DNA of 64,000 bases from a bacterium (GTDB taxonomy: Bacteria; Myxococcota; UBA727; JAUIJE01): NCBI GenBank assembly GCA_030431455.1, contig JAUIJE010000002.1, positions 443,294 through 507,293 on the forward strand, given 5' to 3'. This document shows positions 17,785 through 61,898 of the stretch, in pieces (position 1 is the stretch's first letter; each line of letters begins with the position of its first letter). The notes under the pieces were generated by a model that saw only the letters and a list, made by a program, of their open reading frames with translations, was not told the DNA's origin and ran no database searches. The position numbers and the translations under genes were made by a program.

Positions 17785-17917
17785 GGGATCTCCTTGGTGC
17801 GGAAAAGCCCATCAAGCCAGGTCAGCGCGCCTCGTGTTTGATGGCGGGTGCGTATTTTCGCCGGGCAGGACATGGGGCGGGCGCGTGCTACCGTGATGCG
17901 CGACCGGAGGAGGATTG

Positions 17918-18310
17918 ATGGATGCATTTGACATCTCGCGCACCTTTGTGCGCCTCGACGCCGATGGTGGGGCGAGTTCCTTCGGGGTGACCCGGGAGGT
18001 GTGGTCTGCGGGCGGGGCCGCCAGCACCTACGATCGCGTGATGGGCACCTTTGCGTTCGAGACCGACGAAGATTTGCACCGGGACCAAGCAGAGATGCAT
18101 CCCGCGGGGGACGAAGTGTTGGTGGTGCTCGAGGGTGCGATCACCGTGGTGCTCGAACACGAAAGCGGCCCAGAGCCGGTGCACATCGATGCCGGCCAGG
18201 CCGCGGTGGTGCCGCAGGGACTGTTTCACCATTTGGAAGTGCGCACGCCTGGGCGCCTTCTATTTGTGAACAGCCGCCGCGACATGCAGCATCGCCCGGC
18301 GCAGGGCTAG
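17918..18310 (+). CDS. Cupin-domain protein
   Basis: 130 residues. A double-stranded beta-helix with cupin motif 1 (DEDLHRDQAEMHPAGDEVLVVLEG) and motif 2 (AAVVPQGLFHHLEV). Histidines in both motifs could hold a metal ion. GGAGGAGG precedes the ATG at 17918; a TTG three bases upstream is less likely. Function within the cupins is undetermined. Confidence 0.85.
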   Translation: MDAFDISRTFVRLDADGGASSFGVTREVWSAGGAASTYDRVMGTFAFETDEDLHRDQAEMHPAGDEVLVVLEGAITVVLEHESGPEPVHIDAGQAAVVPQGLFHHLEVRTPGRLLFVNSRRDMQHRPAQG

Positions 18311-18319
18311 AGCACGTCT

Positions 18320-18395
18320 GAGACGAGACGCCCGACCGGGTGCTTGTCGTGGCCTTGGCGAGCGCAATGCATCTTTGGCGTTGGGGTATGCGCCC
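18320..18395 (-). repeat. Dispersed 3'-end repeat, copy C
   Basis: Copy of the roughly 75-bp element also found near 23.9 and 58.0 kb. It runs on the minus strand and begins with the last base of the SDR stop codon (TAG). Stem 1 arms on the minus strand are GGGCGCA and TGCGCTC (18395-18389 and 18366-18360), and a second weaker hairpin ends near 18322. The spacer CTCGCCAAGGCCACGAC is shared with copy A. Confidence 0.75.
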
Positions 18396-19177
18396 TAAGC
18401 GTCCGGGGGCGGGGGCGCGGTGCGGAGGGCGGCCCAGCCCACCAGCGACGACGGGACCAGGCCCGCGAACAAAAACGCCAGGCGGTAGGCCAAGGGAAAG
18501 CGCACCACCGCGGTGTTTTTCTCGATGCCGCGCCACATGATGTGCGCGGCCTGGTCCGCGGTGATGATGAAGGGCATGGGGAACTTGTTCTTGTCCGTCA
18601 TCTCGCTTTTGACAAAGCCGGGCAGGATCAGCGTCACCCCAATGCCTTTGCTTTTCAGGTCGTGCCGCATGCCGCGCACAAAATAGGAAAAGCCAGCCTT
18701 GGTCGCGCCGTAATCAAGCGCCACCGGCAGCGCGATCTCGCCCGCCAGCGACGACACCGCCACCAGCTGGCCCCGGCCCCGGGCCATCATCTTTTGCTGG
18801 GCCGCGAGCAGGGTGGCGATGGCGCCCATGAAGTTGATCTCAAACACGCGCTTGGCGTCCGCGTAGCGGATGCTTGATGCCGTGCGTCCCCCGCCGCCCA
18901 CCCCGGCGTTGGCCACCACCACGTCAAAGCCGCCCACCTCGTCGTCGAGGGCGCCGATGACCTCTTCGAGGTCGTCGGCTTGCTGCACATCCAGCACCAC
19001 CGCGGTGGCTTTGCCCTGTTGTTGCTCGATCTCGTTCACCAGGGCGTCGAGCCGGTCTTTGCGGCGGGCCGCGACCCATACTTGCGCACCGTTTTGGGCA
19101 TAGCGGCGGGCCAGGGACGCGCCAATGCCGCTGGACGCGCCGGTGATGAGAACTTTCTTGGCCGAGGATGTGCTCAT
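18395..19177 (-). CDS. Short-chain dehydrogenase, DltE/YdfG-like
   Basis: 260 residues with Rossmann motif ITGASSGIG (about residue 12), VVANAGVG, catalytic VSSLAG...YGATKAG (Ser/Tyr/Lys), and a hydrophobic C-terminal segment (LAFLFAGLVPSSLVGWAAL) that may touch the membrane. ATG at 19177 chosen because the homologous region starts there. Probably acts on acyl or lipid substrates, by analogy with SDRs that have such tails. Confidence 0.9.
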   Translation of the reverse strand: MSTSSAKKVLITGASSGIGASLARRYAQNGAQVWVAARRKDRLDALVNEIEQQQGKATAVVLDVQQADDLEEVIGALDDEVGGFDVVVANAGVGGGGRTASSIRYADAKRVFEINFMGAIATLLAAQQKMMARGRGQLVAVSSLAGEIALPVALDYGATKAGFSYFVRGMRHDLKSKGIGVTLILPGFVKSEMTDKNKFPMPFIITADQAAHIMWRGIEKNTAVVRFPLAYRLAFLFAGLVPSSLVGWAALRTAPPPPDA

Positions 19178-19226
19178 GGGCGGCATCCTGTCAGCCCCAG
19201 CCGCGGGCGCAACCACGCCGCGCGAA

Positions 19227-21173: not shown

Positions 21174-23729
21174 TTATTGGGGAACGTTCGCGGGACAGAT
21201 GCTGTAGGCCGACGGGAACGGGAACGCTGCGGTGTCCTCGTCGATGCTGCGCAAAAACGCAGCCAGGTCGGCGACCTCGGCGCTGTCGAGCCCGAACACC
21301 GCGTTGCCCGCGGTGAGGTGCGCGGTGAACGCCCCGTTGGGGTCGAGCAGCTCCTCGAGGGTCTCGGCCGCCCCGTTGTGCAAATAGGGCGCGCCGAGGT
21401 TGATGCCGAGCAAGGAAGGCACATTGAAGCCGTCCACGCCCTGTGCGTTGCCGCCGTTTTGCCGGATCTCGGCCGCGCCTTGCCCGCTGGGTCCCGCGGC
21501 GTTGAACGTGCCCACGTCGCGGACCACGCAGGTGTGCCGCGCGGGCGGTCCATTGGCATCGTTGGCGAGCACGAACAGTTCGCTGGTGTCGGTGCTGACC
21601 ACGTGGTCGGCCCGCACGCTGCCCACATCGAGCACACCCACGTCGAGCAAGCTGAGCAAGCGCTCGTCGTTGCCCACCCCGCCGACCGGGTCGTAGTAGC
21701 GCTGCGACAAGGTCCAGAGCGGCCCCGCGTGGCAGCTGGTGCAAAGCCCCTCTTCGAACAGCGCGCGGCCGGCGACCGGGTCACCCGACTGGTGCACGCT
21801 TTTGCCCGTGGGGGTGCGCAGCTCGGCGATGTAGGCCTCGATGTCGTCCCAGTCCTCGGGGACGGCCCCGGATTGGGCCGCGGCCCGGGCGCTGCCGAGG
21901 TTGAAGCCGTCGATGGGATCGCCCACCCCGCCGGGGCCCACGAAGTCGATGCGCACCGCGGCGTTGGCGGTTCCATTGGCATTGAGGGCGGCGTCGCTCA
22001 CGATCGCACCGGTGCCGCCGGCCACCCCGCGGGTGTTGAGCTCGAAGTCGTGGACCTCATCGAAGATCGCGGTCCAGTTGAGCACCCGCTGGATCGCCCC
22101 GCCGGCGTTGAAGGTCGCGGAGGTATCCACAGTTTGGCGGGGGCCCGCGGGGAACACCCAGGTCACGTTGTCGGTGGTGCCAAAGGGGTGACAGCCCACG
22201 CACCCCACCCAGCCATTGGTCGACCACCGGGCGAGGCCGGTGTTGAAGAACTTCTGGCCCCGAAGCACCGCGATGTCGTGGGCGGTGGTGGGTTGGGGGG
22301 CGCTGGGCACGTCGCCGGTGGACACCTGGTTGGCGAGGTCGATGACGGTCACGCTGCGGGCGACCTCGTTGATGGTGTAAGCAGTGGCATTGCTGATGGC
22401 GATGCCGGTGGGCGAGGGCTGGGTGGGCAAGAACGACGCCCCGGTGGGGGAGCCGGCCACCGGCGGGTCTTGGTTGAAGTCGAGGCGCAGGACCATGTTG
22501 GACACCAGCGAGGTGATGTACGCGAACTGGGTGCCGTCCACGAACCGAATGTCACTGGGCACCGGCAAGAACCGCTTGGGCGCGGACAGGGGGTCGATCA
22601 GGGCGTTGAGGTTGAACGGGCCCTGCACCAGCTGCGAGGTGTTCACGTCGACGACGTGGAGCAGGCCCTGCAAGTTCTGGTGGAAGTCGGTGGTGCCTTC
22701 AAACGCTTCGGGGGAGGCCCCCACCGAGGTCAGGTAGAGCCGGCCGTTGTTGAGGGTGCAGCCGTACAGCTGGTTGGGGTAGGCGCCGGTCTCTTCGAAG
22801 CCGGGGATGCCGGACTGGTCGAGGGCGGGCAGCGCGTAGTCCTGCAGCTGGTGGGTGGCGGTGTTGATGCGGAAATAGCGGCCTGCGCGGGCATCGTCGG
22901 TGGCCTCGACACCGCCGAGCGCGGGCCGGGCGTAGAAGTCGGTCACGAAGAGCGCTTCATCGCTGTCGTCGGCGTCCGCGTCGTTGGTCATGCACAGGGC
23001 GAAGGGCGCGCCCCCGGTGTGGATGTCCTCGGTCTTGTCATAGCTCGCGGTGTCGATCACGCTCACGGTGCCGTCGGCCCAGTTGCTCACGTAGAGGGTC
23101 GCGCCGGTGGGGGACAGGGCCAGGCGCACGGGCTCTGATCCGACGAGCACGGTGTCGTCCACCGCGGCCGCGGCGCTGTCCGCGTGGGTGATTTTGCTCA
23201 CCGACGAGTCCGCGCGGTTGACCACGTAGAGGGTGGTCGCGTCGGGGGCGAAGATCACCGCGCTGGGTTCGTCGCCCACGGCCACGCGGGCCACTTCGGT
23301 CATGCCCGGGAGGGCAAAAATGGTCACGTCGTCGGTGCCCTTGTTCACCGCCGCGAGCAGGGACCCGTCTCGGTTGGTGGCGATGGGCCCGCCTTGGCTC
23401 GGATTGGTCAGCGGCTCGCCGTCCCCGTCACCATCGCCATCGCCATCGCCATCGCCATCCCCGTCCCCGTCGCCATCGCCATCGCCATCGCCATCTCCGT
23501 CCCCGTCTCCATCACCGTCACCATCGCCATCGCCATCCCCATCGCCGTCTCCGTCTCCGTCCCCGTCTCCGTCTCCATCGCCGTCTCCGTCTCCATCGCC
23601 GTCCCCATCGCCATCCCCGTCTCCGTCTCCGTCTCCATCGCCGGGACCGGTGTCCGCGGGGCACGCGGTGGTGCCGGCCACCGCCAGCGCCAAGCACAAA
23701 AACAACCAGGGCAATCGATGCAATACCAT
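21174..23729 (-). CDS. GD-linker lipoprotein: YVTN beta-propeller fused to di-haem cytochrome c peroxidase/MauG-like domain
   Basis: 851 residues. A lipoprotein signal ([10 protein letters not shown]) is followed by 37 Gly-Asp pairs, then a seven-bladed propeller region ([43 protein letters not shown]). The C-terminal half has two haem-binding motifs, CVGCH (about residue 510) and CTSCH (about residue 694), with a distal Met/His-rich region as in cytochrome c peroxidase/MauG proteins. Probably anchored in the outer membrane, the linker holding the domains away from it. The ATG at 23729 directly precedes the signal; a terminator follows the gene. Confidence 0.85.
23418..23642 (-). repeat. GD-coding hexamer tract, 37 units
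   Basis: 225 bases reading as 37 Gly-Asp pairs plus one Gly. Glycine codons vary (GGC, GGG, GGA, GGT) and aspartate uses GAT and GAC, so the DNA is a degenerate GGNGAY hexamer array rather than a pure microsatellite. Confidence 0.95.
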
Positions 23730-23875: not shown

Positions 23876-23953
23876 GTGTCCAGCGACGAGACGCCCGATC
23901 GGACGCCCGTCGGTGCCTGGCGCGCACCGCGTCTTTGATTTTGAGATGCGCGC
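23876..23953 (-). repeat. Dispersed 3'-end repeat, copy B
   Basis: Minus-strand copy starting eight bases behind the stop of the SnoaL-like gene. Stem 1 arms are GCGCGCA and TGCGCGC (23953-23947 and 23926-23920). The second hairpin contains CGTCCGATCGGGCG, and the block GGGCGTCTCGTCGCTGGACAC is shared almost exactly with copy A. Confidence 0.75.
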
Positions 23954-23961
23954 GATGCGCG

Positions 23962-24330
23962 TTAGCCCAAGCCCAACCCGCGCCGGATCTCGGGCGTGTC
24001 TTCGTACACCTGCCACACCGCCACCCGGTCCCCTTCGATCGCCGCGCGCCAAATCGCCGGGCCCGCGAGCGCCGCTTCGGCGCAGGTCGAGTGGCCGGTG
24101 GCGATCGCTTCGCCGTCCCGTTCGATCACGGTCTCGATGTGGTTGAGGTAATCGGGGAAGGCCCCAAAAAACCCCCGCCACGCGCCCTCGGCCGCGGCCC
24201 GTCCCTCGACCGTGCCCCCCGCCGCGTCCACAAAACGGTGGGCGGGGGTCATCAACCGCACCAACGCCTCGAGGTCGCGGCGGTTGATCGCATGGTTGAA
24301 AGCATCGAACAGGGTGCGCGGGGTGGTCAT
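23962..24330 (-). CDS. SnoaL-like (NTF2-fold) protein
   Basis: 122 residues. The opening [22 protein letters not shown], then THRFVDA-type and [25 protein letters not shown] segments are the SnoaL-like polyketide-cyclase/NTF2-like pattern (cone-shaped ligand pocket). It ends with a short conserved [12 protein letters not shown] tail. Enzymatic role uncertain; many such proteins are isomerases or binding proteins. Confidence 0.82.
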
Positions 24331-29566: not shown

Positions 29567-30940
29567 TCAGGGGCAAAAGGCGCTGTAGCTCCCGAGGTCG
29601 CACGCGAACAGGGCGCCGTTGGAGTGGATGTTGGGGGTGGGGTCGTCCATGGACGTGAGGTTCGGCAGGTTCAGCGTCTGCAAGCTGCCGTTGGTGTAGA
29701 CGCTCAGGCTCTTGAGGTGCTGGACCGAGGGCATCGAGATGCTCTGCAGTTCGGGGTTGGTGTCGACGGACAGCAGCCAGCCGGGCACGTCGACGAGAGA
29801 GGGCACATAGAGCTGGTGCAGGAACGCGTTCTGCTTGATGTAGAAGCGGTATTCGACGGTGTCGAGGGCGCCGATGTCCAAGGTGAGCAGCGCGGGGTTT
29901 TTCGCGATGAGAAAGTCGTAGGCGCTGGTCAAGGCGGGGAGCTGAATCTCCGCGAGGCTGGTGTTGCCCTTGCCGGTGTAGAGCTCGTCATACCCGATGG
30001 CGACCGCGTCGGTCACCGTCTGGAGGGCGGGCAACGACAAGCTCTGGAGCGCGTCGCAGTCGCCGACGGTCAGGTTCGCCAGCGAGGTGAGGTCGTTGAA
30101 GACGACCGCGCCCAATGCGCCGTTCGCGTCGAGCCACAAGTCGTCGAGGGCGGGGAGGTTCGGGGCGCTGATCGCGAGCAGCCCGTCGTTGTCCCGGATG
30201 ACCATGTCGGTGCCCACGCTTTGCAGCGCAGGGAAATCCACCGCCACGATGCCGCTGTTCTCGATGTGAATGCCGCCCCCGACCGCGGTCAGGGCACTCC
30301 AGGTCACGTCGAGCGCCCCGTCGATGCCATAGAACCGGATGTCGCCGCCGATGGACGCGAGGGCGGGAAGCTGGAGCGCGGTGAGCTCGTCGCTGGCGCT
30401 CTCGATCTCCAGATCTCCGCCCAGGGTCTGGAGCGCGGGCAACGACACCGACGTCAGTCCCTCGGCGTCAATCACCAGGTGCCCATCGAGGGCCGTGCAC
30501 CCGGCGATCGCCGCGACGTCGAACGAGTTCGTGATGACGTACGTCCCGGCAAACGCGGCGCACGCGTCTCCATCGCCGTCTCCATCCCCATCGCCATCTC
30601 CATCCCCGTCGCCATCTCCATCTCCATCGCCGTCTCCATCGCCGTCTCCATCTCCATCGCCATCTCCATCGCCGTCGCCATCGCCGCCCACGTCGACACA
30701 GAGGTCGCTGAAACAGCTCAGGCCCACATCGCAGGCCCCGCCCGCGGTGCACGGGCAACCCTCCGCCCCGATGGGGCAATCCCCGTCGCCATCGCCGTCG
30801 CCGTCGCCATCCCCGTCACCGTCGCCATCGCCCTGCGCGTCGGGGCCCGCGTCCTGCCCGCCGTCGTCCTCGCCGCCGGTACAGGACAGACAAAGGGACA
30901 ACGAGCCCACCAAGATCGCCAGCCGCACCGCGCGTTTCAT
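29567..30940 (-). CDS. GD-linker lipoprotein with receptor-L-domain-like repeats
   Basis: 457 residues. Signal MKRAVRLAILVGSLSLCLSC with lipobox (Cys20). Two GD tracts (9 and 20 pairs) flank a small Cys-rich module (CPCTAGGACDVGLSC). The C-terminal 310 residues are about twelve repeats of the pattern LPALQTLGGDLEI, an Ecm33/receptor-L-type right-handed beta-helix. The ATG at 30940 precedes the signal. Possibly adhesive or carbohydrate-binding. DUF1552 and DUF1592 genes lie upstream on the same strand, 73 bases away. Confidence 0.82.
   Translation of the reverse strand: MKRAVRLAILVGSLSLCLSCTGGEDDGGQDAGPDAQGDGDGDGDGDGDGDGDGDCPIGAEGCPCTAGGACDVGLSCFSDLCVDVGGDGDGDGDGDGDGDGDGDGDGDGDGDGDGDGDGDGDGDGDACAAFAGTYVITNSFDVAAIAGCTALDGHLVIDAEGLTSVSLPALQTLGGDLEIESASDELTALQLPALASIGGDIRFYGIDGALDVTWSALTAVGGGIHIENSGIVAVDFPALQSVGTDMVIRDNDGLLAISAPNLPALDDLWLDANGALGAVVFNDLTSLANLTVGDCDALQSLSLPALQTVTDAVAIGYDELYTGKGNTSLAEIQLPALTSAYDFLIAKNPALLTLDIGALDTVEYRFYIKQNAFLHQLYVPSLVDVPGWLLSVDTNPELQSISMPSVQHLKSLSVYTNGSLQTLNLPNLTSMDDPTPNIHSNGALFACDLGSYSAFCP
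30566..30685 (-). repeat. GD-coding tract, 20 units
   Basis: 120 bases encoding 20 Gly-Asp pairs; a second tract of 9 pairs lies at 30779-30832 in the same gene. Codons are mixed. Confidence 0.95.
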
Positions 30941-40190: not shown

Positions 40191-41027
40191 ATGAGGGCAC
40201 AGTGGGCGGGGCTGATGTGGGGGGCGATGGTGTGGGCGGCGGTGGCCGGTTGCCCCAATGACCCGGCGGACCCGGTGGCCGACGCGGGCACCGGTGACGG
40301 CGACGGCGATGGGGACGGCGATGGTGACGGGGACGGCGATGGTGATGGTGACGGGGACGGCGATGGTGATGGGGACGGTGATGGTGATGGTGATGGTGAT
40401 GGGGATTGTCCCAACGCGGCGGGCGGCGGTTTGTGGGGGCACGACTTTGACCGGTCGTGCGGCGCCGCGTCCGATTGCGCCACCGTGCCGGTGCAGCGCG
40501 ACTGTTGCGGCACGCAGACTCATTTTGGGGTGGCCAGCGCCGCGGCAGACGCGCTGTCCGGGTGGGCCGCGGGCTGCGCGGTCCATTTTCCCGACTGCGA
40601 CTGCGCGCCCGAGCTCCCCTTCGCCGACGACCTGAGCCAGCCGGCGGGGTTCGGCGACGAGGCGGGGGTGATGTGCTTGAGCGGGCTTTGTGTGTCGACG
40701 TTCGCCGACCCCGGCCCGGCTTGGCCGATGTGTTTTGACGTGGCGGGCGCACAGGCCCACGTCGACCGGTTCTGTTCGGTGGCCGATGACTGCCACATCG
40801 AGCGCGTATACCGCGGGTGTTGTGGCGAGGAGCACGCGTTGGGCGTGAGCGCGGCGGGCGCGCCGGTGGCGCGCTTGTGGTCGGACAGCTGCGACGACCA
40901 GGCCATATGCGACTGCATCCCCGACCACATCGCCGCGGACGATGGCTCCGAGGGCCCGCTGGATGCGACCGGCCTGACCGTGGTGTGCGACCAAAACGTC
41001 TGCACCACGAGCTTCACCGCCAACTGA
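40191..41027 (+). CDS. GD-linker cysteine-rich lipoprotein
   Basis: 278 residues. Lipobox VAGC (Cys22), a 19-pair GD linker at residues 35-72, and a mature part with about twenty Cys in repeated sets (RSCGAASDCATVPVQRDCCG, FCSVADDCHIERVYRGCCG) in two related halves. Disulphide-rich extracellular protein, anchored in the envelope; no known family. GGAGCG precedes the ATG; a longer upstream reading is an artefact. Confidence 0.8.
   Translation: MRAQWAGLMWGAMVWAAVAGCPNDPADPVADAGTGDGDGDGDGDGDGDGDGDGDGDGDGDGDGDGDGDGDGDCPNAAGGGLWGHDFDRSCGAASDCATVPVQRDCCGTQTHFGVASAAADALSGWAAGCAVHFPDCDCAPELPFADDLSQPAGFGDEAGVMCLSGLCVSTFADPGPAWPMCFDVAGAQAHVDRFCSVADDCHIERVYRGCCGEEHALGVSAAGAPVARLWSDSCDDQAICDCIPDHIAADDGSEGPLDATGLTVVCDQNVCTTSFTAN
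40293..40406 (+). repeat. GD-coding tract, 19 units
   Basis: 114 bases encoding 19 Gly-Asp pairs with mixed GGC/GGG/GGT and GAT/GAC codons. Confidence 0.95.
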
Positions 41028-41086: not shown

Positions 41087-42931
41087 CTACAGCTTCAGGA
41101 CGTTCATGCCGCCGGGGTAGAGGTAGCTGGTGGCCGGGGCGTAGCCGTAGGTCATGATCGAAAAGGTGTTGCCGGTGGGGCTCTCGATGACGTGGCTGCC
41201 CACGGTGAGCTCGACCCGGGCCGTGCCCCACCCGGTGCTGCCGATGGGGTTGGCCAAGGTCACCGGCGCCCCGTCGAGGAGGATCTCCGCGTCGATCGGT
41301 CCAGAGACATTGAGCCAGTTGCTGGTGTAGCTGTCCGGGGTGAAGAACACATAGTCGGTGCGCAGCTGGGCCACGGGGATGAGCAGCCCCATGGCGGGAT
41401 CGCCCTCTTGGTTTTCCGTGGGCGGGTTTTCGTACGGCCAGAGCGCGCCGGGCAGCATCTGGGTGATCGACAGCCGCGCCCCGGCCACGGTGGCTTCAAA
41501 ATCTTGGTCGGTCTCGAACTGGAAGACCTCGCCCGCTTGCAAGGTCACGTCCCCGACCACTGGGGGATCGAAGGTGACCACGGTGTCGTCGGCGTCGGCG
41601 AGCAGCCGGTAGACGGCGGTGTCGCGGCCCCCGTCGGTGGGGTGTTCGGGCGCGGTGGCGATGATGCGTTGGCCCCAGGTCTCGAGGGGGAAGAGCATCT
41701 CCTCGTTGTGGTCGCAGTACAGGTTGCCCGCGGGAAACGCGATGCAGGTGTGGCCGCCGAACACCGCGAGGGGTTCTTGGTTGGGGGTGGTGATCATGGT
41801 GCCGGTGGGGTCGGCGTCGAGCCCGTGGCAGACGGTCCCGCCCGCGGCGGTGGCCACACAGTCGGTGTCCACCGCGCCGTCGACGATGCCGAGCACCTGG
41901 AGCACGTCGCCCCGGTCGAGGGTGACGGTGAGCAGCTCGCCGGGGTCGAGGGCGGCGACACCGGAGCCGCTTTGGGTCCGGGTCGACGAGGTCACTTGGA
42001 CCACGGTGCCGTCGACGAGCCCGACCACGGTGAAGAACCCGGGGAAGCGGTCGGCGAGCGCGCTGGGGCTGCCCCAGGCGGGGCCCGAGGAGACCATGTA
42101 GTTGCCGGTGAGCACGTGTTCGGGGAGGAGCAGGCTGGCGTCGTTGGTGAACGACGTAATGTTGCTGAGCTCGAAGTGCACGGGGTTGTATTGGTAGACG
42201 GCGATGGGCACGTCGCTCTCGATTTCGACCCCGGCGCCGTCGACGAGGGTGGATTGGGTGCTCTTGAACACCTCGTTGTCGATGGGCAAGTAGAAGACGT
42301 CGGTGCTGCCGGGTTGGACCACGGTCGAGCCGTAATCGATGCCATTTTTGCTGACGCTGACGCTGGCGGTGGGGTTGTCCGGCGGGTTGCCGATGACCAC
42401 CGCGAAGTCGGTGTCGAACACGGGGTCGAGGAGCGCGTTGTTGGTGGCCACGGCCATGAACCGACAGCCGAGGTTGGACAGGATCAGCTCGGCGAACTCG
42501 CACCGCGGGGTGCACGTCCCGCTGCCGTAACAAATCTCGCTGCCCAGGCAGGGGGCTTCCACGTCGTAGGCCGAGCCCATGTCATTGCACAAAAACCGTT
42601 GCTCATCGTCGCAGGTGGCAGCCCCCGGGGTGCAGAAGGTGTCGCCGTCCCCGTCGCCATCGCCATCGCCATCCCCATCTCCGTCCCCATCTCCATCTCC
42701 ATCGCCGTCTCCGTCCCCATCCCCATCGCCGTCGCCATCGCCATCGCCGTCCCCGGCACAATCGGGGTCGGGGTTGGGGCAGTTGTTGTCGCAGATGCCA
42801 TCGCCGTACAGGCCGCTCTCCTCACAAGGGTCACCGGTGCCGGCATCGGGCGTCACCGTCGGCGGGCTGGGGCAGCCGGCGGCGGCGACGACGAGGAGGG
42901 CCAAGACCAAGCGAAACGTCACGGTGTGCAT
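41087..42931 (-). CDS. GD-linker lipoprotein with IgGFc-binding-like domain
   Basis: 614 residues. Lipobox AAGC (Cys21). An N-terminal Cys-rich stretch (DPCEESGLYGDGICDNNC) precedes a 19-pair GD linker (DNA 42641-42754), then another Cys-rich link (FCTPGAATCDDEQRFLC). The C-terminal 400 residues carry the IgGFc_binding (vWF-type-repeat) pattern: PLAVFGGHTCIAFPAGN, NEEMLFPLETWGQRII and VTLQAGEVFQFETD. Such domains in Myxococcota are probably adhesins. The ATG at 42931 is the start at the signal. Confidence 0.82.
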   Translation of the reverse strand: MHTVTFRLVLALLVVAAAGCPSPPTVTPDAGTGDPCEESGLYGDGICDNNCPNPDPDCAGDGDGDGDGDGDGDGDGDGDGDGDGDGDGDGDGDGDGDTFCTPGAATCDDEQRFLCNDMGSAYDVEAPCLGSEICYGSGTCTPRCEFAELILSNLGCRFMAVATNNALLDPVFDTDFAVVIGNPPDNPTASVSVSKNGIDYGSTVVQPGSTDVFYLPIDNEVFKSTQSTLVDGAGVEIESDVPIAVYQYNPVHFELSNITSFTNDASLLLPEHVLTGNYMVSSGPAWGSPSALADRFPGFFTVVGLVDGTVVQVTSSTRTQSGSGVAALDPGELLTVTLDRGDVLQVLGIVDGAVDTDCVATAAGGTVCHGLDADPTGTMITTPNQEPLAVFGGHTCIAFPAGNLYCDHNEEMLFPLETWGQRIIATAPEHPTDGGRDTAVYRLLADADDTVVTFDPPVVGDVTLQAGEVFQFETDQDFEATVAGARLSITQMLPGALWPYENPPTENQEGDPAMGLLIPVAQLRTDYVFFTPDSYTSNWLNVSGPIDAEILLDGAPVTLANPIGSTGWGTARVELTVGSHVIESPTGNTFSIMTYGYAPATSYLYPGGMNVLKL

Positions 42932-53599: not shown

Positions 53600-56142
53600 T
53601 GGTCACCCGGCTGGCGGCGGGTCTTCTGGGCCTGGTGTGGTTTTGCGGCTGTGGCTTATTCGACCCCCTCGGCAACACCACCCGGTTGATGGTGGTGGTC
53701 GACCCGGGCGACACCGGGGCGGAGCAGATTCAGGTCCGGGTGCTCGGTGACGGCGGCCTGCTCGACGAGAGCGCCCGGGTGCCCGAACAACCCGCGGGGG
53801 CGTTGGCCCCCGAGACCTCCTATACATTGGCCATGCCCGACGATTGGGCAGATCTCGAACTGACCTTCGCGGTGGACGGGTGGCGGGGCGACGACATCGT
53901 GGCCACGGCCCGGCGCGACGACATCACCCTGTCCGCGGGGCGTCTGGTGCGGGAGGCGTTCGCCCTCGGGGCCCCCTGCGGCGATGGCCAGCTCACCGGG
54001 GACGAAGCCTGCGACGACGGCAACACCGACGCGGGAGACGGCTGCGACGCGGGCTGCGCCATCGAGGAGGGCGCGGTGTGCACGACCCCGGGCACGCCCT
54101 GCACCTTCAGCTGTGGCGATGGGTCGTTGCAGGCAGGGGAGGGCTGCGACGACGGCAACGGCGTGGACGCGGACGGGTGCACGGGCTGTGTGCTCGACGA
54201 GGGGTATGTGTGCCCGGTGCCGGGGGCGGCGTGTGAGATCGCGTGCGGCAACGGGGCGGTGGACGGAGACGAAGCGTGCGACGACGGCAACGGGGTTGAC
54301 GCGGACGGGTGCACGGGCTGCGTGCTCGACGAGGGGTATGTGTGCCCGGTGCCGGGGGCGGCGTGTGAGATCGCCTGCGGCAACGGGGCGGTGGACGGGG
54401 ACGAAGCGTGCGACGACGGCAACGGGGTCGACGCAGACGGATGCACGGGCTGTGTGCTCGACGAGGGGTATGTGTGCCCGGTGCCGGGGGCGGCGTGTGA
54501 GGTCGCCTGCGGCAACGGGGCGGTGGACGCAGACGAAGAGTGCGACGACGGCAACATCGCGGACGCGGACGGCTGCAGCGGGGCGTGCGCGATTGAGCCG
54601 GGGTTCACCTGCATCAATGTGCCTGCACCGTCGACGTGTTTTCGGTGCGGTGATGGCTTGCTCGCCGCGGGGCACGAGGCGTGCGACGACGGCAACCTCG
54701 ACAACGATGACGGGTGCAGCGCGGCGTGTGAAATCGAGGACCGGGGGGTGTGCAGGGAAGACACCGAACCCTCGGTGTGCGGCCGGTGCGGCAACGGGGT
54801 CATCGAAGACGCGGTGGACGAAGAATGCGACGACATCGCCGACACCGGGGACTGCGCGATGTGTCGGCTCGCGGTGTGCGGCGATGGGTATGTGAACGCC
54901 TTCGGAAACAATGGAGGGGCACGCGAAACGTGTGACGACGGGCCCGACAACGCGTATTTGGCCACCTGCAGCGACACCTGTGTGGCCGCCACGTGTGGCG
55001 ATGGTCTGGTCCAAGCGGGCGAGGTCTGTGACAGCGCGGGGGCCGAGGGCTGCGGCACCGGATGCTTGGCGGTCAGCCCCGAATACCGCTGTGCGGGCAT
55101 GCCCAGCATCTGCCGCTCGTCGGCCCAGTCCGTCGACGGGTCGGCCTGCGCGGGGGTCCCCGCCGACGTCGGGGGCGTGAACACCTGTCTCAACGATGTG
55201 ATCGCCAACGCCCCGAGCGGGTTTTTTCTCACCGCGGTGTGGCTCGGTCCCGGGGTGTACCACGGGGACGTCGACGTCGACAGGGGCGCGTTGCAGCTGG
55301 TGGGTGAGGTGGACGTCGACGGCACGCCGCTGGCCACCTTGGAAGGCGCCGTCGGCAACGGCACCCCGACGCTGCGGCTGTCGCCCAAGGTGCTCGCCCC
55401 CGTGGGCCTGTACCACGTGAAGGTCACGGGGGCCGGTCCGGGAGAAGCGTTGGTGCACATCGAGAGCAACGTCAGCACGGGGTACATCTCCCCCGCGGAC
55501 ATCGGCCCCAGCGACGGGGTCGGGGTGCGCGTGACCGGGGGCGTCCAGGCGGTGATCCAGCGCAGCACCATTCACGACAACGCCGAGGGCGGGGTTGAGA
55601 TCCTGAGCGACAACGGGTCGCAGCACCAGGTGTTCGTCAATGTGATCCGGGGCAACGGTTCGCCCACGTCGGCGGTGGGCGGGGTGGTGATCGACGGCGG
55701 GGCCAATGTCAATTACAACAGCATCTTCGACAACCAATCCGCGGCGACCCGAACCTTGAACGCGGCCACCGTCGACCTCGGCAGCGGGGTCTACTGCGGG
55801 GCCGGCACCAACTTGGTGGGCAACATCGTATGGGACAACACCGGGGCCACCGCGGTCGAGGTGGACTGTCCCAACATCGCGTTCAGCGTGGTCGAGGGAT
55901 ACGGCGACCTGGTCGTGGCCCGGGGCAGCGAGTACGGCGAAGCCAACGTGGACGTGGACCCGCTCATCGACGCCGATGGCCGACCCGGACCCGGCTCGAT
56001 TTGTCTCGATTACGTGAACGGGTTCGCCACCGCCTTTCACAACCCGAAGTTCTCCGTGCGCAATCTGCCCAAGCCTCACCTGGGCTCGGGCCAGAACGAC
56101 TGCGGGGCCTACGAGTCCGGTTTTTATACCCCCGCCCCGTGA
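53599..56142 (+). CDS. Cys-rich-repeat/right-handed-beta-helix surface protein
   Basis: 847 residues. Signal MVTRLAAGLLGLVWFCGC may be a lipoprotein signal (ambiguous lipobox). After about 130 residues come eight or so Myxococcus cysteine-rich repeats (CGNGAVDGDEACDDGN with CTGCVLDEGYVCPVPG). Three of these are almost identical 132-bp units at 54145-54540. Residues 530-847 are a right-handed parallel beta-helix (IQRSTIHDNAEGGVEIL, NYNSIFDNQ). Surface protein, perhaps an adhesin or polysaccharide-binding protein. Translationally coupled to the TPR gene. Confidence 0.85.
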   Translation: MVTRLAAGLLGLVWFCGCGLFDPLGNTTRLMVVVDPGDTGAEQIQVRVLGDGGLLDESARVPEQPAGALAPETSYTLAMPDDWADLELTFAVDGWRGDDIVATARRDDITLSAGRLVREAFALGAPCGDGQLTGDEACDDGNTDAGDGCDAGCAIEEGAVCTTPGTPCTFSCGDGSLQAGEGCDDGNGVDADGCTGCVLDEGYVCPVPGAACEIACGNGAVDGDEACDDGNGVDADGCTGCVLDEGYVCPVPGAACEIACGNGAVDGDEACDDGNGVDADGCTGCVLDEGYVCPVPGAACEVACGNGAVDADEECDDGNIADADGCSGACAIEPGFTCINVPAPSTCFRCGDGLLAAGHEACDDGNLDNDDGCSAACEIEDRGVCREDTEPSVCGRCGNGVIEDAVDEECDDIADTGDCAMCRLAVCGDGYVNAFGNNGGARETCDDGPDNAYLATCSDTCVAATCGDGLVQAGEVCDSAGAEGCGTGCLAVSPEYRCAGMPSICRSSAQSVDGSACAGVPADVGGVNTCLNDVIANAPSGFFLTAVWLGPGVYHGDVDVDRGALQLVGEVDVDGTPLATLEGAVGNGTPTLRLSPKVLAPVGLYHVKVTGAGPGEALVHIESNVSTGYISPADIGPSDGVGVRVTGGVQAVIQRSTIHDNAEGGVEILSDNGSQHQVFVNVIRGNGSPTSAVGGVVIDGGANVNYNSIFDNQSAATRTLNAATVDLGSGVYCGAGTNLVGNIVWDNTGATAVEVDCPNIAFSVVEGYGDLVVARGSEYGEANVDVDPLIDADGRPGPGSICLDYVNGFATAFHNPKFSVRNLPKPHLGSGQNDCGAYESGFYTPAP
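54145..54540 (+). repeat. Three nearly identical 132-bp units in the Cys-rich gene
   Basis: Units begin at 54145, 54277 and 54409. Each codes 44 residues from CDDGNGVDADGCTGC to AVDGDEA. Differences are few and mostly synonymous (for example GTT to GTC), indicating recent duplication or gene conversion. Confidence 0.9.
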
Positions 56143-56189: not shown

Positions 56190-58004
56190 ATGCGACGCGG
56201 GTTGTTGCTCTTGATGACGTTGGTCGTCGGCGGTGGGGTGTGTCCCCTTCCCGACGACGCCCAGTACGGTGCCCCGTGTACCAATGATGCTGCGTGCGGG
56301 GACGACCTCGTGTGCCGCGAAGACCGTTGCGTCCCCAGCGACCCTGGCGACGGCGACGGGGATGGGGATGGCGACGGCGACTGCACCAACGACGCGTCCT
56401 GCAGCGACGGGGATTTCTGCAATGGGGTCGAGCGCTGTGTGGCGGGATCGTGCACGAGCGGTGACGACCCCTGTCCATTGGCGGAGTGCGACGACGCGGT
56501 GGACGCCTGCGTCGAGTGCCTGGCCGACAGCGACTGCGTCGACGAAGACTTCTGCAACGGGGTCGAGGCGTGCAACGCCGGGGCATGTGAGTCGAGCGGC
56601 AACCCCTGCGGCGACGAGAACTGCAACGAAGGCACCGACAGCTGCATTCCGTGCACCGACGACCTGGATTGCCGCGACGGCAAAGTGTGCAACGGCAGCG
56701 AGACTTGTGAAAACGGGGTCTGCGTCCCGGGCACCGGGCCGTGCGAGGCGTTGGGCACGCCCTATTGTGACGAGGACCTCGGTTGCCTCGAGTGTTTGGG
56801 GCAAGCGGACTGCGACAACGGCGATTTCTGCGACGGGGTCGAGCAATGTGACGTCGACGGTGCGTGCACGCAGCCGGACCCGCCGTGCACCGCCCCGCTG
56901 GACGCGTGCGACGAAGCCGCCGACGCGTGCCTGCAGTGCCTCACCGACGCCGACTGCGACAACGGCGATTTCTGTGACGGGGTCGAGGTCTGCAACGGCG
57001 GTCTGTGCGAAGACGGCGAGAGCCCCTGCGTCGACCCGACCCCGGAGTGCATCGAGGCCACCGACACCTGCGTCGAGTGCGACGACAACCTCGACTGCGC
57101 CAACGGTGATTTCTGTGATGGTGAAGAGGCGTGCAACGGGGGCGTGTGCGAAGACCGGCCCGACCCCTGCGCCTCGGGGGACGTCTGCGATGAGGTGGGC
57201 AACGCTTGTGTCGCGTGCTTGGTGGACGGCGATTGTGACAACGGGGACTTCTGCGACGGGGCCGAGACCTGCGTGAACAACAGCTGCCAGATGGGGACCG
57301 ACCCCTGCCTGGGCAACGGGTGCATCGAGTCCATCGATGCCTGTGGCGAGTGCGCCGACGACGGCGACTGCAACGACGGGGCTTTCTGCAATGGCGTGGA
57401 GGTCTGCCAGGAGCAGCCGGGGCCGATGGGGCGCACGTGTGTCACCCAGGACCACCCCAACTGCCCAGATTTCTGCAACGAGGACCTCGATGCGTGCGTG
57501 GAGTGCCTCGCCGATGGCGACTGCCAAAATGGACAGTTCTGCGACGGCATCGAGGTCTGCAGTGGCATGGGCAACTGCCAAGACGGCTTCGACCCGTGCC
57601 CCCCCAACGCCCCGGCGTGCGACGAGGGGGACGATGCTTGCTACGAGTGCATCGACAACGGGGATTGCGGGGGGGCCACGCCCTACTGCCTCAACAACTT
57701 CTGCGTGGAGTGCACCCAGGCGAGCCAATGCAGCAACGGGCAGTTCTGCGACGGCGCCGAGGCCTGCGTGAGCAACGTGTGCACCGGCGGGCAGATGCCC
57801 TGCGCGGGCCTCACCCCGGTGTGCCTCGAGAACAACGACACGTGTGTCGAGTGCGGGGTTGACGCGGACTGTTTCCTCGGCACCTGCCAGAACAACGTGT
57901 GCATCGAGTGCATGACCGACTTCGACTGCTTTGGTGAGCCGGGTTGTTTCGACTGCATCAACAACCAGTGCGAGCCGAACTTCGATCCGCGGACCTGTTT
58001 CTAG
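56190..58004 (+). CDS. Cys-rich lipoprotein with repeated DxDC-FCDG units
   Basis: 604 residues. Signal MRRGLLLLMTLVVGGGVC with lipobox GGVC (Cys18), a short GD linker of 6 pairs (56346-56381), then about ten repeats of DCDNGDFCDGVEVCNGGLC with a C-x2-C spacer, rich in disulphides. This is the Myxococcota EGF-like cysteine-rich pattern. It is followed directly by repeat copy A at its stop codon. Surface protein, possibly adhesive; no enzymatic domain. Confidence 0.85.
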   Translation: MRRGLLLLMTLVVGGGVCPLPDDAQYGAPCTNDAACGDDLVCREDRCVPSDPGDGDGDGDGDGDCTNDASCSDGDFCNGVERCVAGSCTSGDDPCPLAECDDAVDACVECLADSDCVDEDFCNGVEACNAGACESSGNPCGDENCNEGTDSCIPCTDDLDCRDGKVCNGSETCENGVCVPGTGPCEALGTPYCDEDLGCLECLGQADCDNGDFCDGVEQCDVDGACTQPDPPCTAPLDACDEAADACLQCLTDADCDNGDFCDGVEVCNGGLCEDGESPCVDPTPECIEATDTCVECDDNLDCANGDFCDGEEACNGGVCEDRPDPCASGDVCDEVGNACVACLVDGDCDNGDFCDGAETCVNNSCQMGTDPCLGNGCIESIDACGECADDGDCNDGAFCNGVEVCQEQPGPMGRTCVTQDHPNCPDFCNEDLDACVECLADGDCQNGQFCDGIEVCSGMGNCQDGFDPCPPNAPACDEGDDACYECIDNGDCGGATPYCLNNFCVECTQASQCSNGQFCDGAEACVSNVCTGGQMPCAGLTPVCLENNDTCVECGVDADCFLGTCQNNVCIECMTDFDCFGEPGCFDCINNQCEPNFDPRTCF

Positions 58005-58084
58005 AGCGCATCTCAAGATCAAAGATGCGTGCGCTCGCCAAGGCCACGACGAGCGCCCGATGGGGCGTCTCGTCGCTGGACACT
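58004..58084 (+). repeat. Dispersed 3'-end repeat, copy A
   Basis: Plus-strand copy starting with the last base of the Cys-rich gene's stop codon (TAG). Stem 1 arms are GAGCGCA (58004-58010) and TGCGCTC (58030-58036). The second hairpin has outer arms GACGAG (58048-58053) and CTCGTC (58069-58074) and inner arms CGCCC (58054-58058) and GGGCG (58063-58067), with one bulged T. Confidence 0.8.
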
Positions 58085-58141
58085 GTTTTTCACTTTCGAG
58101 CGGGCGTTCGTCCCCCGCCCCGCCCGGGGGCGCTCGTGGGG

Positions 58142-60908: not shown

Positions 60909-61898
60909 ATGACCCGAGCGACAACCTTCGTGGCCGGCGCGACCGGTTTTGTCGGCGACCGCCTGGTGCGGCGCCTGGCCGCGGCCGGCCACCGGGTGCG
61001 CGGGGGCTCACGGCACCCCGGCCCCGCCGCCCGCCGGCACCCCGCGTTCGACTGGGTGCACCACGACGCCCAGGACGCGGACAGCACCCGGCGGGCCTTG
61101 CGGGGCGTGCGCACCGCCTACTACCTCGTGCACGGCATGGCCGATGGCGCGGGGTACGCCGCGCGCGAAGCCGACGCCGCGCGCATCTTCGCCCGTGGGG
61201 CCGCGGCCGCGGGCGTGGAGCGCATCATCTACCTCGGGGGGGTGCGGCCCACCGGGCCCTGTTCGGTGCACCTGCAAAGCCGGCTGACCACCGGCGAAAT
61301 CTTGCGCGGCGGTGCGGTGCCCGCCCTCGAGCTGCGCGCGGGCATGATCGTCGGCGCGGGGAGCGCCTCGTGGCGCATCTGCCGCGACGTGGCCACGCGC
61401 CTGCCGGTCATGGTGGTGCCCCCTTGGCTCAAGCACCGTTCGCAACCCGTGGCCATCGACGACGTCATCGTGGCCCTCGTGGCCGCCGCAGACCTCTCGG
61501 GGGATGGGCCCGGGGTGTTCGACCTGCCGGGTCCAGAAACATTGCGGGGGGTGGACGTGCTCCGCCGGGTCGCGCGGGCCTATGGGGTCCAGACCGTGTT
61601 CGTGGATGTGCCCGGCTTGCCCCGCGAGGTGGCCGGCCGCGGCCTCGGGGTGCTCAGTGGGGCCGACCCCGCGCTGTCGCGCGAGCTCGTCGAGGGCCTG
61701 GCCGCCGACCTGGTCGCCACCGAAGAGAGCCTGTGGGCCCACATCGACCACGCGCCGATGTCGTTCGCCGATGCGGTGGCCACCGCCCGGGCCCAAGAAC
61801 AGGCCCCGGGCCTCGGCGCCCTGCTTTTCGAGCGGGCGGTGGGCAAAGCTGCAGCCGCATTGTGGGCGCGTCTGCCCGCTGGGCTGTCGTCGGGCTGA
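60909..61898 (+). CDS. NAD(P)-binding atypical SDR / nucleoside-diphosphate-sugar epimerase-like protein
   Basis: 329 residues. N-terminal FVAGATGFVGDRLVRRL (Rossmann, GxxGxxG), then YYLVHGMADGAGYA and LGGVRPTG. The catalytic YxxxK is absent (SRLTTGEIL is in its place), as in the atypical-5 SDRs that bind NADP but act as oxidoreductases or sensors. Such proteins usually sit beside isoprenoid or lipid genes. Four bases ahead of a phytoene-desaturase-like gene: an operon. Confidence 0.86.
   Translation: MTRATTFVAGATGFVGDRLVRRLAAAGHRVRGGSRHPGPAARRHPAFDWVHHDAQDADSTRRALRGVRTAYYLVHGMADGAGYAAREADAARIFARGAAAAGVERIIYLGGVRPTGPCSVHLQSRLTTGEILRGGAVPALELRAGMIVGAGSASWRICRDVATRLPVMVVPPWLKHRSQPVAIDDVIVALVAAADLSGDGPGVFDLPGPETLRGVDVLRRVARAYGVQTVFVDVPGLPREVAGRGLGVLSGADPALSRELVEGLAADLVATEESLWAHIDHAPMSFADAVATARAQEQAPGLGALLFERAVGKAAAALWARLPAGLSSG

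Follow-up and report, generated by a model that had tools for sequence, protein, structure and literature searches.

A short repeat behind stop codons in a Myxococcota genome is most likely a MITE-like element with an IS5-type left end

Why does a two-hairpin repeat stand directly behind stop codons at several places in one bacterial genome? The question is raised by a 64,000-nucleotide stretch of a Myxococcota genome (contig JAUIJE010000002.1; hereafter the window), in which a first, sequence-only reading had noticed three such copies and described them as a mobile or conserved 3'-UTR RNA element. We consider it very probable that the copies belong to a lineage-private family of non-autonomous, MITE-like transposable elements that insert at YTAR, the most likely mover being the transposase of a resident IS5-family insertion sequence (IS) acting in trans. 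The features of the window on which the argument draws are the following.

58004-58083, + strand: copy 1, intact (GAGCGC...GGACAC); covariance-model match E 4e-22
58004-58020, + strand: left end of copy 1, with homology to the terminal inverted repeat of the IS5-family IS resident in this genome (family consensus GAGCGCATCTCAAAATC)
58002-58003, no strand: left target TA of copy 1, within the target CTAG at 58001-58004
23876-23953, - strand: copy 2, decayed; covariance-model match E 3e-16
18314-18395, - strand: copy 3, decayed; covariance-model match E 6e-11
18307-18319, - strand: AGACGTGCTCTAG, identical to the final bases of an IS5-type end (GATTTTGAGACGTGCTCTAG), probably an IS-end remnant beside copy 3

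All three copies were recovered by a covariance model, each behind a gene of the same orientation as first described, and two of them (at 58004 and 18395) indeed have the G of a TAG stop as their first base. For copy 1, the stop of the open reading frame 56190-58004 occupies 58002-58004, so that the first G of the element is the third base of the stop; its right-hand TA has decayed to TG (58084-58085). Copy 2 is located 8 nt behind the TAA (23962-23964) of a gene ending at 23962 on the minus strand, carries a duplicated CGCGCATC(G) at its head, and has a 3-nt deletion in stem 1. Copy 3 is flanked by two convergent genes, 18395-19216 (-) and 17915-18310 (+), with the TAG stops of both at its borders; the CTAG stop of the latter gene falls inside the adjoining AGACGTGCTCTAG, a match so short that it lies below the 3-mismatch full-length search used for IS ends, and which we read as a probable remnant from its sequence. 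The sequence blocks once thought common to all three copies each occur in two of them: copies 1 and 3 share CAAAGATGC and GCTCGCCAAGGCCACGAC, while copies 1 and 2 share GGGCGTCTCGTCGCTGGACAC. A further match in the window, at 61449-61509, was inspected and judged to be due to chance.

The three copies turn out to be a small part of a large family. A search with the 80-nt query found 45 clear dispersed places in the 7.7-Mb genome (reverse-strand hairpin echoes left out), and a covariance model built from 36 copies and run on the whole genome found about 58 places at E<=0.01, rising to 65 at E<=0.1, counts that include a few reverse-strand echoes of the near-palindromic second hairpin over tandem copies. 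The elements are 79-82 nt long and have no coding capacity. Many are decayed, and 25 well-preserved copies show a mean pairwise identity of 92%. Outside this genome, neither 38 relatives nor the 194 other phylum genomes, all from beyond its own genus and family, yielded a convincing copy; the exact core pattern had no match in 85k species genomes or in viral contigs (a scan that left out the own genome), and Rfam gave no match at the gathering threshold. The family is thus private to its lineage, found in one genome among 195 of the phylum. Weak model matches in two genomes (G003 and G006) and partial DNA matches in three phylum genomes cover only the hairpin and were set aside as chance.

The borders of the element are exact. 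The consensus reads YTA|GAGCGCATCTCAAAATCAAAGATGC-GTGCGCTCGCCAGGGCCACGACGAGCGCCCGATCGGGCGTCTCGTCGCTGGACAC|TA(G), the element itself beginning with GAGCGC and ending with GGACAC. Similarity among copies stops at the flanking TA on both sides, and the information content of the flanks drops to background beyond Y-T-A on the left and T-A-G on the right. Left flanks read CTAG in 12 and TTAG in 7 cases (together 19 of 23), and C or T precedes TAG in all 19 left flanks that have TAG. Of 31 right flanks, 14 read CTAG and 7 read CGAG. The TA on both sides presumably represents a target duplication; judged by the TA, it would span 2 bp, and it could span 3 bp. The GA right flank is not accounted for by such a duplication. 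This CGAG flank, with G rather than T after the terminal C, is seen in about a quarter of the copies (L008, L009, L017, L018, L021, L035, L037, and L045), including some inside tandem arrays.

Identical elements also occur in different contexts: two copies (L013 and L014) have the same sequence, and the 200 bp on each side of them are only 33-35% identical. Head-to-tail arrays of three copies on contig C22 and of four on contig C11 are joined at a shared TA or GA. Since the copies of the C11 array have a private deletion in common, this array probably grew by local duplication. Four observations thus support the mobile part of the original description: the copies are many and dispersed, their borders are exact, the same element recurs in different contexts, and one terminal repeat is shared with an IS.

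This IS is present in two copies that are 96% identical.

C16:127435-128419: IS5-family IS, 985 bp, flanked on both sides by CTAG
C28:26323-27307: IS5-family IS, 985 bp, flanked on both sides by CTAG

Its transposase is encoded in two overlapping frames, with DUF4096 (PF13340) in the N-terminal part and DDE_Tnp_1 (PF01609) in the C-terminal part, and matches NCBIfam NF033580. The DDE transposase, the matching terminal inverted repeats, and the CTAG flanks place it in the IS5 family. The same ending, ...GTGCTCTAG, is found in a distant IS (66% identity) from a Sorangiineae MAG. The first 17 nt of the repeat match the two IS ends at 16 and 15 of 17 positions, and both repeat and IS are found at CTAG/YTAG with TA on each side. 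Several copies of the repeat are, moreover, directly followed by IS-type ends at a shared TA or GA. We infer that the IS5 transposase is the likely mover of the repeat. Two smaller elements with IS5-type ends were also observed, a derivative of about 280 bp at C26:65742 and a mini element of about 61 nt at C24:54188 (L083), which has both ends (AGCACGTCTCAAAATCCCCGCGG...CCGCGTTTTGAGATGCGC) and a TA target.

The right end is a different matter. As a noncoding element of less than 300 nt with many dispersed copies, the repeat resembles a MITE, which would be expected to carry IS-matching terminal inverted repeats at both ends. Its right end, GTGTCCAGCGACGAGAC, agrees with the IS5 terminal repeat at only 8 of 17 positions (p = 0.08, uncorrected), and we therefore call the element MITE-like rather than a strict MITE. 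It agrees with an IS630-type end, GTGTGCTGAGTC, at 9 of 17 positions, which is not convincing (p 0.015, uncorrected). Head- and tail-pattern searches returned no larger parent element with both repeat ends, and no source of the right end was found. It is quite improbable that the repeat is a chimera, with a left end from the IS5-family transposon and a right end from another TA-targeting transposon such as the resident IS630-type one; if it were, a single parasite could exploit two transposases that have a common target.

Other elements use the same kind of site. An IS630-type transposon (L142) lies at CTAG at G000 C1:29050-30236, with ends GTGTGCTGAGTC/GACTCAGCACAC and a DDE_3 transposase in a 380-codon open frame; it is the target that completes the TAG stop of this transposase, and at that TAG an IS5-type end follows directly. 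Further repeats starting with TAGAGYRCATCCCAAAACC, some with TTGCATCCGCAGGATGCAACC-like palindromes, occur at L105, L106, L107, and L108 (position 1501) and apparently represent another element family at the same TAG site.

The target also explains why the copies are found behind stop codons. The window contains 13 CTAG sites, as against 181 expected from base composition (about 14-fold rarer) and 43 from a Markov estimate. Four of the 13 are at called stops, eight are intergenic, and one is inside a called gene. The stops next to the elements are accordingly unusual: among 35 gene ends within 12 nt of an element border, 29 are TAG, 4 TAA, and 2 TGA, whereas the stops of the 56 called genes in the window are 13 TAG, 5 TAA, and 38 TGA. 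TAG or TAA thus makes up 33 of 35 border gene ends versus 18 of 56 window genes (p about 1e-9 for TAR versus TGA), with the proviso that these stop counts, and the orientation counts below, are based on heuristic gene calls (open frame plus GC3). Because CTAG is rare overall and seldom inside genes, an element that seeks it lands on TAG and TAA stops, and its choice of YTAR as target accounts for the location of the copies behind stop codons.

The series of events that we propose is as follows. Insertion at YTAR would leave TA on both sides, in the form YTA|G...C|TAR. With YTAR and CTAG scarce in genes, most insertions would fall on TAG or TAA stops. The first G and the last C of the element would then restore a TAG stop both to the left-hand gene and, on the opposite strand, to a convergent right-hand gene, leaving both proteins unchanged. 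In the sequences themselves, the third base of the left TAG belongs to the element, and the right TAG, read on the opposite strand, likewise ends in a G that the element provides, so that neither neighbouring frame has changed its end. Each insertion would also create a new target at its border, which may be how copies and IS ends come to abut at a shared TA. Any effects of the hairpins on transcript 3' ends would be a by-product.

How, then, does a conserved 3'-UTR RNA fare, that is, a signal for processing, stability, or termination under selection on RNA folding? Its attraction lies in the position behind stops, which target choice already explains, and in a strong two-hairpin fold. The hairpins are real as first described: the consensus folds at -39.9 kcal/mol, with z = -4.0 as RNA and -4.4 as DNA. 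No T-run follows the strong hairpin, however, and the orientation relative to genes is not fixed. Counting gene ends no more than 12 nt from a border, 18 sites have a same-strand gene ending at the left border and 17 an opposite-strand (antisense) gene ending at the right border. Selection for a 3'-UTR RNA in one orientation would not give this pattern, and copies in both orientations relative to transcription are what the sequence-only reading itself had named as speaking against its RNA.

The original case for RNA folding was a compensatory change in stem 1, and this dissolves on a larger sample. No pair is changed on both sides in 36 aligned copies, which is below the shuffled mean of 0.6. 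The apparent covariation of window copy 2 comes from its deletion (TGCGCTCGCCAGG to TGCGCGCCAGG) together with the local CGCGCATC(G) duplication and involves no compensating substitution. A 57-row structure-fitted alignment does contain seven pairs with a both-sided change, yet all of the cells concerned come from four rows: the degenerate or misaligned L111, whose right half is unrelated, L125, whose left half is unrelated, and L042, together with window copy 2 itself. The compensatory base-pair changes that mark a structured RNA are thus absent.

Conservation is higher in paired than in unpaired columns (96% versus 89%, p = 0.001), a point in favour of the RNA and one that makes a constraint on the hairpins possible. 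The same pattern is compatible with young copies whose hairpin is conserved, or with a use of the hairpin in transposition, and taken alone is no evidence for an RNA function. The covariance-model search, proposed at the outset, and the 80-nt query together extended the family from three copies to about 45-58 in the genome, and none convincing was found in related genomes. With compensatory changes, copies in relatives, Rfam matches (at gathering thresholds), and a T-run all lacking, and with antisense borders about as frequent as sense ones, we consider a conserved 3'-UTR RNA very unlikely; of the initial description, the mobile half stands and the covarying RNA half does not. The wider lesson is that a target motif coinciding with a stop codon can make a parasite resemble a conserved 3'-UTR RNA. 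In a GC-rich genome, YTAR targets concentrate insertions on TAG and TAA stops, and scans for 3'-UTR RNAs should first exclude such stop-targeting elements.

A milder variant would have the mobile repeat secondarily recruited to block transcription in both directions between convergent genes. Indeed, convergent genes flank 18 of the 40 separate sites, the near-palindromic second hairpin folds on both strands (as its reverse-strand model match shows), and the hairpin columns are conserved. On the other hand, canonical T-runs are absent, many copies are decayed, and convergent placement is expected from target choice plus insertion tolerance, as in the pneumococcal repeats (PMC3049150). We thus regard such recruitment as rather unlikely.

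Within the literature on stop-codon-targeting MITEs, the nearest described case for the MITE-like element favoured here is MITEPsy1 of Pseudomonas syringae, a 100-nt element linked to the IS5-family ISPsy2 that targets CTAG or YTAA and moves in vivo (PMC3189936). Both are short, lack genes, have ends related to an IS5-family IS, and insert at a CTAG-type target; the outermost bases of the two MITEPsy1 ends differ, which we count as a further likeness. MITEPsy1, however, has 18-nt terminal repeats on both sides, a 4-nt duplication, and six copies in that genome (PMC3189936), whereas here only the left end matches the IS, the flanks share only TA, and some 45 or more copies lie mostly at stops.

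Also near are the pneumococcal BOX, RUP, and SPRITE repeats, which, like IS, are enriched between convergent genes, a placement attributed to insertion tolerance; trans-mobilisation by resident IS transposases has been proposed for RUP and BOX, and RUP is linked to an IS630-type IS (PMC3049150). They share with the present family a short, structured, dispersed nature and the convergent-gene placement, but differ in sequence, and here the target motif is itself the stop codon.

Multi-copy hairpins at gene ends are also known as REP/REPIN and PATE palindromes, moved by Y1 transposases (IS200/IS605 or RAYT). Two hairpins, ends without matching inverted repeats, and insertion beside a fixed short motif recall that type, but Y1_Tnp (PF01797), which was detected in control genomes, is absent from this one (with about 3% missing from the assembly). 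Moreover, the left end is an IS5 terminal repeat, and this and the TA on both sides indicate a DDE (IS5) transposase. A Y1-moved palindrome is accordingly disfavoured and extremely unlikely.

Two further kinds of repeat were observed in the window, both of them coding. Tandem repeats at 53998-54754 and 56367-57870 consist of cysteine-rich units of about 132 nt and about 135-144 nt, which we take to be reminiscent of the myxobacterial cysteine-rich repeat. Low-complexity GACGGCGATGGN tracts encode DGDGDG linkers in several separate genes (23369-23690, 30502-30853, 40274-40421, and 42589-42781).
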